DNA from: an uncultured Lutimaribacter sp.
GTDB lineage: Bacteria > Pseudomonadota > Alphaproteobacteria > Rhodobacterales > Rhodobacteraceae
Direction: 5' to 3'
NCBI GenBank assembly: GCA_913061505.1
Contig: CAJXSO010000010.1
Location: 1 to 64,000 of the forward strand
Length of the DNA stretch: 64,000 nt
Shown here: positions 47,534 through 50,965 of the stretch, piece by piece
How the letters are laid out: the number at the start of each line of letters is the position of its first letter
How positions within the stretch are numbered: position 1 is the stretch's first letter
Translations under genes and position numbers: made by a program
Notes under the pieces: generated by a model
Told to the model about the DNA's origin: nothing
Databases searched by the model: none
Seen by the model: only the letters and a program-made list of their open reading frames with translations

Positions 47534-48763
47534 CTAGCCCGGCGGAATATTGGCCGCGGCCAAGAGGCTGGGTATGGCCTCGCGAAAGCGGAAAAACCCA
47601 TGCGTGGCGTGGGGCCATGCGCGGCTGTCAAAGCCGCGGCGCAGCTGGAACACCGGCAGGCTGCTGCGCGCGCTGAGTGCGGCCAGAAAATTGGCCACGG
47701 GGCCCGTGGGCGCATAGGGCGCAACAATTTGCGCGGCACCTGTGCGCTGGGCCCAATCGGCCAAATCGCCCGGCGTGCAAAAGCCCTGCGTCACTGGCCC
47801 CAGCTTGGCGCCCCAACGCCCCACGCAATCTTGCATGGCGGCGCGCCCCCAATCGGCCACGGCGGGGCTGATGGCCAGCGGGCTGCGATCGGCGCTGAGA
47901 TCAAGGCAGGCGGTGGCCACGGGCGGTGCAATCTGGTCTAGCGCAAAGCCCGGGCTTAGATCGTCTTCGTGCAGCAAAAACACGCTGGGCGCATCGCGGT
48001 TTGGCAGGGCGCATTCGGGCAAGGCGCTGCGCTGGGGCGGGGGTGGGCCCTGCAGCGGTGCGGGGTTGGCGGCCAGGCCGCTGGGGGCAAAGCGGCGCGC
48101 GGTGAATTTCACAATATTGTCAGCGCGCGCCACATAATGTTTGCCCGCCGTATGCAGCCCCGCCACCCAGCGCCACGATAATGTGTTCGAGGCGGGATCG
48201 CCATCGATCAGGTGGCGCAAAAAGAAATCTGCCCCCAATTCCCAAGGCAGTTGCAAGGTGAAGATCCAGATCGAGGCAAACCACATGCGCGCATGATTGT
48301 GCAAATAGCCAGTATCGGCCAATTCCTGCGCCCATGTATCAAAGCAATCGATCCCGGTGGTGGCGTTGCAGGCATCCGCCCAACGCCTGCGCAAACCTGC
48401 CTCGCCCTGCACGCGGTTTAGCGCTTGCTGAAGGCTGTTTTGGTAATCATCCCAAATGCTTGGGCGCAGTTCCAGCCAGCCTTTCCAATAGGTGCGCCAA
48501 AACACCTCGGCCACGAATTTGTCGGCCGCGTGCAGGCTGTGGCGGCCTAAAACGGCGGCCAGCACCTCGTCTTCGCAGATCAGGCGGTGGCGCAGATAGG
48601 GCGACAGGCCTGATACGTTGTGATGCTTTCCTGCGCCATGATCATAATTGCGCAGCTTGGCATAATCGGCCCCGGCGCGCGGCAAAAACTGCGCCAGCCG
48701 TTCCAGCCCTGCGGTGCGGGTTGGGGGGAATGCGGGGGCCAGGCTGGGGCTGGGGTTGGTCAT
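47534..48763 (-). CDS. Photolyase/cryptochrome-like FAD-binding protein with permuted domain order
   Basis: A 409-residue protein. Residues about 30-230 match the FAD-binding helical domain of DNA photolyases: SGLSPYLRHRLI, FWRTYWKGWLELRP, TGYLHNHARMWFASIW, DGDPASNTLSWRWVAG. Canonical photolyases carry an alpha/beta antenna domain before this; here nothing precedes it, and residues about 255-409 after it look like that missing alpha/beta domain (SVFLLHEDDL at the start, IVAPYAPTGPV, then RFREAIP). Likely a flavoprotein of the photolyase family, either DNA repair or light sensing. It lies 61 bp upstream of prfC and divergent to clpP. Confidence 0.8.
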   Translation of the reverse strand: MTNPSPSLAPAFPPTRTAGLERLAQFLPRAGADYAKLRNYDHGAGKHHNVSGLSPYLRHRLICEDEVLAAVLGRHSLHAADKFVAEVFWRTYWKGWLELRPSIWDDYQNSLQQALNRVQGEAGLRRRWADACNATTGIDCFDTWAQELADTGYLHNHARMWFASIWIFTLQLPWELGADFFLRHLIDGDPASNTLSWRWVAGLHTAGKHYVARADNIVKFTARRFAPSGLAANPAPLQGPPPPQRSALPECALPNRDAPSVFLLHEDDLSPGFALDQIAPPVATACLDLSADRSPLAISPAVADWGRAAMQDCVGRWGAKLGPVTQGFCTPGDLADWAQRTGAAQIVAPYAPTGPVANFLAALSARSSLPVFQLRRGFDSRAWPHATHGFFRFREAIPSLLAAANIPPG

Positions 48764-48944
48764 GAAAACGGGGCCTTTTTCAGATGCGCCGGTGCAGGCC
48801 CGCTGCAGGTAGGGTGGGCGCGCAATTCTTCAAGCAAGCCCAGCAATCTGCCTTGCCCCCCTTGCGGGCGCAGGGGCGCATCACTAAGACTTGCTTAGCA
48901 AATGAAAGTCTAAGCATCGATCCATAGTAAACAGGCGGGCGCAG

Positions 48945-49574
48945 ATGAAAGATCCTATTGACGTATACATGAACACGCTGGTGCCGATGGTTGTTGAACA
49001 AACCAGCCGCGGCGAACGGGCCTATGATATTTTTTCGCGCCTTCTGAAGGAACGCATCATTTTTCTGTCTGGGCCCGTGCATGACGGCATGTCTAGCCTG
49101 ATCGTGGCACAATTGCTGCATCTCGAGGCCGAGAACCCGACCAAAGAGATCAGCATGTATATCAACAGCCCCGGCGGGGTGGTAACATCGGGCCTGTCGA
49201 TCTACGACACGATGCAATATATCCGCCCCAAGGTCAGCACGCTGGTGGTGGGGCAGGCGGCCTCGATGGGGTCGCTTTTGCTGACGGCTGGCGAAAAAGG
49301 CATGCGCTTTAGCCTGCCCAACAGCCGCGTCATGGTGCACCAGCCCTCGGGCGGGTATCAGGGGCAGGCCACCGATATTATGATCCACGCCCAAGAGACG
49401 CAAAAGCTGAAGCGCCGTTTGAACGAAATCTACGTCAAACACACCGGCCAAGATCTGGAAACGGTCGAGGCGGCGCTGGAGCGCGATAATTTCATGTCGG
49501 CAGAAGATGCCAAGGCATGGGGTTTGATCGACGAAATCGTTGAAAGCCGCGGCAAGATGGGCGACGAGGCCTAA
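48945..49574 (+). CDS. clpP: ATP-dependent Clp protease proteolytic subunit
   Basis: Self-compartmentalised serine protease that works with ClpX or ClpA. The 209-residue protein has catalytic S107 in QAASMGS, H132 in MVHQPSGG and D181 in LERDNFM. Upstream, between this gene and the photolyase-like gene, are 181 bp of shared divergent DNA containing an imperfect inverted repeat around 48884-48915. clpX follows after 128 bp. Confidence 0.98.
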
Positions 49575-49584
49575 GCCAACACCA

Positions 49585-49625
49585 GCCCAAGCCGCAAACG
49601 GGCTTTTTCGCATTGTGGCTTGGGC
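49585..49625 (+). promoter_or_regulatory. Alternative hairpins between clpP and clpX
   Basis: GCCCAAGCC (49585-49593) can pair with GGCTT at 49601-49605, making a short stem followed by T's (terminator-like), or with its perfect 9-base complement GGCTTGGGC at 49617-49625 (a longer stem). The two pairings exclude each other. A second copy of GGCTTGGGC at 49662-49670 offers a third partner. Confidence 0.45.
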
Positions 49626-49702
49626 CATGCTGCCCTAATCTGGGGCGATACGTGAAGACCCGGCTTGGGCCGGACAGGGCATTCAGGCCTGAAAGGGAAG
49701 AT

Positions 49703-50965
49703 ATGGCGAGCAATTCCAGCGACAGCAAAAACACGCTCTATTGCAGTTTTTGCGGCAAAAGCCAGCATGAGGTGCGCAAACTGATTGCGGGCCCCACCGT
49801 GTTCATCTGTGATGAATGCGTCGAGCTGTGCATGGATATTATCCGCGAAGAAACCAAATCGGCCGGCCTGAAATCTTCGGAAGGGGTGCCAACCCCGCGC
49901 GATATTTGTAACGTGCTAGACGATTATGTGATCGGCCAGGCCACCGCAAAGCGGGTGCTGTCGGTGGCTGTGCATAACCATTACAAGCGCCTGAACCACA
50001 GCCAGAAATCGGGTGATATCGAGCTGTCGAAATCCAATATCTTGCTGATCGGCCCCACGGGTTGTGGCAAAACCTTGTTGGCGCAAACCCTGGCGCGGAT
50101 TTTGGATGTGCCCTTTACCATGGCCGATGCCACCACCCTGACCGAGGCAGGCTATGTTGGCGAAGACGTTGAAAATATTATCCTAAAACTGCTGCAAGCC
50201 AGCGAATACAATGTCGAACGGGCGCAGCGCGGGATCGTGTATATCGACGAGGTCGATAAAATTACCCGCAAATCGGAAAACCCCTCGATCACGCGCGATG
50301 TATCGGGCGAGGGCGTGCAGCAGGCGCTGCTAAAGCTGATGGAAGGCACGGTTGCCAGCGTGCCGCCCCAAGGCGGGCGCAAACACCCCCAGCAGGAATT
50401 CCTGCAGGTCGATACAACCAATATTTTGTTCATCTGCGGCGGGGCTTTTGCGGGGCTAGATCGTATCATCGCACAGCGCAACAAGGGCAGCGCCATGGGC
50501 TTTGGCGCCGATGTCAAAGACCCAGACGAGCGCCGCGTGGGCGAGCTGTTCAAACAGCTAGAGCCGGAAGATCTGCTGAAATTTGGGCTTATCCCCGAAT
50601 TTGTGGGCCGTTTGCCCGTGATCGCCACGCTGGAAGACCTGGATGAAGATGCCTTGGTAACAATTCTGACCCAGCCGAAAAACGCGCTGGTCAAGCAATA
50701 CCAGCGCCTGTTCGAGCTGGAAGATGTGCAGCTAACCTTCACCGATGACGCGCTGCAAAGCATCGCCAAACGGGCGATCCAGCGGAAAACTGGTGCGCGG
50801 GGGCTGCGCTCGATCTTGGAAGATATCTTGCTGGACACGATGTTTGACCTGCCCGGCCAAAGCGATGTCACCGAAGTGGTTGTCAATGACGAGGCGGTCA
50901 CGGCTGGCGCGGCGCCACTGCTGATCTATGCCGATGCCAAGAAAGAGGGCGCAACGGCCGGCTGA
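49703..50965 (+). CDS. clpX: ATP-dependent Clp protease ATP-binding subunit ClpX
   Basis: AAA+ unfoldase that feeds substrates to ClpP, 420 residues. The N-terminal zinc-binding domain has C14, C17, C36 and C39. Walker A is GPTGCGKT from residue 117, Walker B VYIDEVDK, and sensor motifs include PEFVGRLPV and TGARGLRSI. The ATG at 49703 follows GAAAGGGAAG. Its terminator is at 50996. Confidence 0.98.

Follow-up and report, generated by a model that had tools for sequence, protein, structure and literature searches.

A NewPHL-type photolyase gene of an uncultured Lutimaribacter encodes the FAD domain ahead of a predicted photolyase-like alpha/beta domain

We analysed a 64,000-nucleotide stretch of DNA from an uncultured Lutimaribacter sp., hereafter the window, and find on its minus strand the gene of a 409-aa protein that we assign with high confidence to the NewPHL photolyases. 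Its FAD domain comes first and a C-terminal alpha/beta domain (Z-domain) follows, and we propose that it performs light-driven repair of cyclobutane pyrimidine dimers (CPDs). The domain order is confirmed as the reverse of that in classical photolyases. The NewPHL class was already published in 2020, and the window gene is one more ortholog. Emmerich et al. (NAR 48:12845) reportedly defined the class in that year.

Results

The FAD domain precedes the alpha/beta domain

Searching Pfam, we found PF03441 (FAD_binding_7) at residues 83-222 of the 409-aa protein (E 1.7e-21), a match that takes in only positions 1-137 of the 203 of the family. The similarity to photolyases starts at residue 13, which lines up with position 206 in chain 1tez (E 1.7e-20). 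Among solved photolyases, the top matches span residues 13-202, and others extend to residue 229. By sequence, no NewPHL was found among the solved structures, the best matches being classical photolyases.

The AlphaFold2 model of the protein (mean pLDDT 95.8, pTM 0.92) shows helices across residues 16-220, then the linker, then an alternation of strands and helices from residue 258 onward. Strands of at least three residues lie at 260-265, 283-287, 345-349 and 371-374, and a two-residue strand lies at 323-324. The first predicted helix occupies residues 16-29. Thus, the expectations that the FAD-domain helices begin within the first 30 residues, and that an alpha/beta-like region follows the FAD domain instead of preceding it, were both borne out. 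The stop-to-stop frame counts only 431 codons, at most 22 of them upstream of the 409-aa reading frame, so no N-terminal alpha/beta domain was overlooked. The protein therefore departs from the classical layout, in which the alpha/beta domain is N-terminal to the FAD domain.

Table 1. Positions in the window of the photolyase gene, its domains and selected residues
Feature	Position	Strand	Basis or conservation
NewPHL-type photolyase gene, 409 aa	47534..48763	minus	open reading frame and AlphaFold2 model
FAD-binding catalytic domain, residues 11-235	48059..48733	minus	PF03441 at 83-222; photolyase structures on model residues 1-238
Linker, residues 236-257	47993..48058	minus	model without regular secondary structure
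C-terminal alpha/beta (Z) domain, residues 258-405	47549..47992	minus	predicted fold that of the classical photolyase N-terminal domain
Trp174, middle Trp of the photoreduction chain	48242..48244	minus	139/139 rows
Trp197, FAD-proximal Trp	48173..48175	minus	139/139 rows
HEDDLSP motif, residues 265-271, after the first Z-domain strand	47951..47971	minus	D268 in 130/139 rows
WPHATHGFF motif, residues 383-391, near the C-terminus	47591..47617	minus	among the most conserved Z-domain stretches

The same architecture recurs in a NewPHL clade

Fetching loci by similarity, the window included, we obtained 139 ORFs whose matches run almost the full length of the family profile. These make up the 139 aligned rows used below, which include the window protein and eight genes counted twice, leaving 131 distinct ones. 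Among the matches listed, the full architecture also occurs in loci labelled Actinomycetota and Gammaproteobacteria. We built a tree with 46 NewPHL-type rows chosen from the full-length set. A branch with support 100/99 sets these rows off from all others, the class I rows included, in a tree whose bootstrap had not settled and which holds one very long outgroup branch.

The partial PF03441 match could also mean that a class I photolyase was truncated, losing its N-terminal domain, and became fused to a random C-terminus. We give this next to no credence, as the same architecture in so many ORFs argues that the window gene is not a one-off truncation, and as the NewPHL clade stands apart from class I.

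One of the genomes (G036) we identify as Dinoroseobacter shibae DFL 12, since 3001 bases of its contig 2 are identical (100%) to plasmid NC_009955.1 at the same positions. A single match in this genome, locus L004, reaches E ≤ 1e-40, and the window protein shares 237 of 394 residues (60%) with it. We infer that L004 is UniProt A8LJA9, the NewPHL of D. shibae. The tree places L004 and the window protein in one 14-row subgroup (82/99, not starred).

Among 295 sampled genomes of the same family, 100 have a match at E ≤ 1e-40 (own genome counted), a few of them partial. Three of these genomes (G007, G261 and G264) show two matches each at this threshold and probably hold two NewPHL copies. Across the phylum, 13 of 299 sampled genomes match at E ≤ 1e-25, again with the own genome counted, and one of these matches (G334) is a short photolyase (SPL). 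A pattern scan of named genomes returned at least 595 stretches, at least 589 of which encode some relative; in the best 80 of these relatives, 79 are full length in one frame. The Curtobacterium (Actinomycetota) NewPHLs L101, L107 and L108 are full length and fall within a group that otherwise consists of Pseudomonadota and genomes of the window's class, which suggests that they came by horizontal transfer.

At positions 47534-50965 of the window, the NewPHL gene is divergent to clpP-clpX. The fetched flank contains clpP in 57 of the best 80 named loci (of at least 589), within 600 bases in 48, and prfC lies nearby in 2 of these 80. A place beside clpP-clpX is common, not universal.

Conserved residues point to CPD repair

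The positions of the A. nidulans photolyase were mapped by alignment. Its E283, W286, M353 and W392, which we take to form the CPD pocket, correspond to E86, W89, M160 and W199 of the window protein, and all four are invariant (139/139 rows). Trp174 and Trp197 presumably correspond to W367 and W390, and the third, distal W314 presumably to position 117, a column with Trp in none of the 139 rows. Some Trp occurs at 110-123, a stretch in which the alignment is gapped, in 25 of the 139 rows, 22 of them at position 115; conceivably, those 25 relatives could have a third chain Trp. The window protein and L004 have no Trp at 110-123. The 409-aa protein thus carries the pair W174 and W197 in place of a three-Trp chain, the trait that marks a NewPHL. 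Consistent with this, the D. shibae NewPHL is described in PMC8948257 as having a mere Trp dyad.

For the FAD site, we used the numbers given in PMC9426592. S51, R90, N156, D187, D189 and N193 are each conserved in 139/139 rows, and Y34, L53 and S54 each in 138/139. The window protein and nearly all rows depart from A. nidulans at V50, F83, Y153 and S192. At A. nidulans position 346, PMC9426592 prints T, and the aligned chain has W. In the Z-domain, the WPHATHGFF motif shows W383 in 137/139, G389 in 138/139, F390 in 136/139 and F391 in 137/139 rows.

We also considered a role as a light receptor (cryptochrome) instead of a repair enzyme. Cryptochromes share the fold, and the genome already encodes L259 and L258, both likewise of photolyase type. 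Still, this is very improbable, as the four pocket residues are invariant and CPD repair in single-stranded DNA is reported for the class. PMC13274461 attributes such repair and an inverted domain topology to NewPHLs or SPLs. Likewise, PMC9426592 describes Phr7 as an N-terminal FAD domain plus a C-terminal Z-domain, acting as a CPD photolyase on single-stranded DNA in D. shibae and M. mesophilicum.

Reading the residues in this way, light-driven CPD repair in single-stranded DNA is the likely function of the 409-aa protein. We infer the following chemistry, substrate and cofactor state. Reduced FAD, excited by blue or near-UV light, would pass an electron to the dimer, which would sit with Trp89 and Trp199 on either side and Glu86 and Met160 close by. 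The dimer would then split and the electron return to FAD. Oxidised FAD would be re-reduced via the two-Trp chain of Trp197 and Trp174. Single-stranded DNA is the probable substrate. The C-terminal domain may close the FAD site, which Emmerich et al. (2020) reportedly described as sealed by this domain.

Besides the window gene, the same genome encodes two photolyase-type proteins of usual domain order, on contig 43 (L258) and contig 48 (L259). L259 is class I-like, and L258 branches apart and is called DASH-like here; neither scores above any NCBIfam cut-off. For the window protein itself, a CRY-DASH identity was rejected (60 bits vs the TIGR02765 cut-off of 317.05). NewPHLs have been claimed to stand in for CRY-DASH. 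The DASH cut-off was passed by none of the 295 family genomes (104 had matches below it) and by 1 of 14 control genomes, and zero DASH against 100 NewPHL-bearing genomes in 295 fits this claim.

The Z-domain resembles the photolyase alpha/beta domain in predicted structure

Residues 255-409 were folded alone (pLDDT 95.3), and domain numbering is used for the structure matches. We compared two origins of this Z-domain. Most likely, it is related to the classical antenna domain and has changed place. Alternatively, an unrelated Rossmann-like domain of the universal stress protein (USP) type was recruited independently and there was no permutation, which we regard as unlikely but deserving of weight.

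Searching Foldseek with the Z-domain alone yielded no match at E ≤ 1e-3. USPs came out on top (best E 1.6e-3) and the first photolyase-type row was RsCryB (E 5.3e-3), a ranking in favour of USP recruitment. Against it, the query-normalised TM scores of the 50 listed rows were 0.46-0.68 for photolyases and cryptochromes vs 0.36-0.48 for USP-type rows. Performing VIA-align, we found only photolyases or cryptochromes in the top ten rows, led by 1iqr (Z 10.5, 3.2 Å, 140 residues, domain residues 4-151 on chain residues 2-147). The best USP Z was 9.5, only 1 lower, and this narrow gap again suits the USP type. The 50 listed rows comprise 35 photolyases or cryptochromes and 15 USP-type rows; these rows are not independent, 18 of the 35 being entries of the M. 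mazei class II enzyme. The USP-type rows are 11 named universal stress proteins and 4 others, 1mjh, 2dum, 2z3v and 1wjg, which we took to have the USP fold. The two groups differ in reach: 32 of the 35 photolyase or cryptochrome rows extend to domain residue 149 or further, past the last strand (the other 3 end at 122-129), and none of the 15 USP-type rows passes residue 135. The junction to a photolyase FAD domain also speaks against an unrelated recruit.

By its predicted structure, the C-terminal domain is of the photolyase alpha/beta fold. It superposes on a photolyase alpha/beta domain over the full length, where a failure would have undone the original prediction. The circular permutation proposed there survives in part, as the order is inverted and the alpha/beta fold superposes, although this arrangement had already been published in 2020 as NewPHL. 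A strict circular permutation additionally needs classical-type packing of both domains. The antenna envisaged in the original prediction found no support here; the role reported for the C-terminal domain by Emmerich et al. (2020) is to seal the FAD site. Searching the literature on photolyases and circular permutation or inverted topology, we found among the titles and abstract openings listed no paper claiming a permutation for NewPHL; the defining paper may do so.

Sequence comparison places the Z-domain as near to USP as to photolyases

With hhalign, the Z-domain reached probabilities of 6-17% against 14 classical alpha/beta domains, no better than against USP. Its profile scored 25.8 against USP, 22.7 against the classical domains and 25.7 against the ORFs linked to SPL genes (see below) in one comparison, and 26.3, 25.8 and 24.7, respectively, in another; scores against ETF and response regulators were low. 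That USP scored as high as the photolyase domains supports the USP-type origin, and so does the result that the Z-domain profile, run against the sequences of solved structures, met no photolyase up to E 10. An early edge of the 14 classical domains over 31 other ORF clusters (22.7 vs 18.8), many of which are probably not genes, vanished against USP. The NewPHL family profile gave only stretches with negative scores in classical N-terminal domains. Comparison of the Z-domain with the ORFs downstream of SPL had a mixed outcome: with 6 of these sequences it gave 79% one way round and 16% the other, and with all 8 it gave 13-35%, in an end-to-end alignment of 125 columns.

Residues 255-409 of the window protein had no Pfam match at E ≤ 1. 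Pfam hits of single Z-domains were dismissed as chance (BLH_phosphatase in 7/80, best 6.5e-5, and 20 other families more weakly).

Short photolyases are followed by a probable alpha/beta ORF

Using one SPL as a query, we found matches at E ≤ 1e-30 in 20 of 289 genomes of the class. Eight are SPL-type (the query's own included), and the other 12, which include the window protein, are of NewPHL type and full length. In all eight SPL loci (L148 to L155), a same-strand ORF adjoins the SPL stop downstream. Judged by peptide patterns, it starts at -8 to +11 bases from the SPL stop, although L148 and L149 have an uncertain start codon. Taken jointly, the eight ORFs matched the N-terminal domains of classical photolyases at 91-94% whichever way the profiles were compared, USP at 33-40%, and ETF and response regulators at <1%. 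Pfam PF00875 (DNA_photolyase) was hit by three of the eight (E 0.013, 0.041 and 0.1), all under the cut-off; three others had no hit and two had other weak hits only. The one tested in NCBIfam, from L153, gave none. Going by the profile comparison, the SPL-linked ORFs probably are alpha/beta domain proteins.

In our tree, with its unsettled bootstrap and very long outgroup branch, NewPHL and SPL form one group by their FAD domains (98/79, not starred). In PMC9426592, Phr7 is placed nearest Phr4/Phr6, Fe-S cysteines are reported for Phr4/Phr6 and not for Phr7, and cyanobacteria are described with phr4/phr5 pairs and a fused phr6. PMC13274461 puts NewPHL together with SPL in a single class, and PMC9649867 describes the SPL class as lacking the alpha/beta domain. 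The window protein, having a C-terminal one, does not show this SPL trait.

Discussion

A FAD-first SPL with a downstream alpha/beta ORF in eight of eight loci hints at a reversal of the order through a split followed by a new fusion. Taken together, the SPL-linked ORFs, the grouping of NewPHL with SPL, and the phr4/phr5 pairs and phr6 make a two-gene stage plausible, in which a FAD gene and an overlapping or abutting alpha/beta gene fused. In that case, the Z-domain would be the genuine antenna domain in a new place, and an SPL would be one half of an enzyme encoded in two pieces. We put this route forward tentatively, as a possibility short of an even chance, because PF00875 was reached only below its cut-off and in three of eight SPL-linked ORFs.

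Emmerich et al. are said to have proposed in 2020 that NewPHL is close to the photolyase ancestor. NewPHL is called ancestral in PMC8948257, and PMC9649867 and PMC9498864 propose the SPL as close to the ancestor. If SPLs were only the leading part of an enzyme divided between two genes, this argument would weaken, and the reversed order would offer an example of domain rearrangement that can be tested.

Compared with known systems, the window protein agrees with NewPHL (Phr7) in the order of FAD domain and Z-domain, the Trp pair and the CPD pocket, and no feature sets it apart from them. With the class I CPD photolyases (1iqr, 1owl, 1dnp) it has in common the FAD-domain fold, the CPD pocket and the predicted alpha/beta fold. 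However, their alpha/beta domain comes first and that of the window protein second, and class I CPD photolyases carry a three-Trp chain. CRY-DASH also belongs to the photolyase superfamily, and PMC9649867 reports that it repairs CPDs in single-stranded DNA. By FAD domain, SPL with Phr4/Phr5/Phr6 is the nearest clade to NewPHL among the tree rows, and the pairs of SPL and downstream ORF resemble cyanobacterial phr4/phr5. Once that ORF is counted, the SPL loci share the FAD-first order with NewPHL; the eight loci have it in two ORFs, whereas the window NewPHL has it in one gene.
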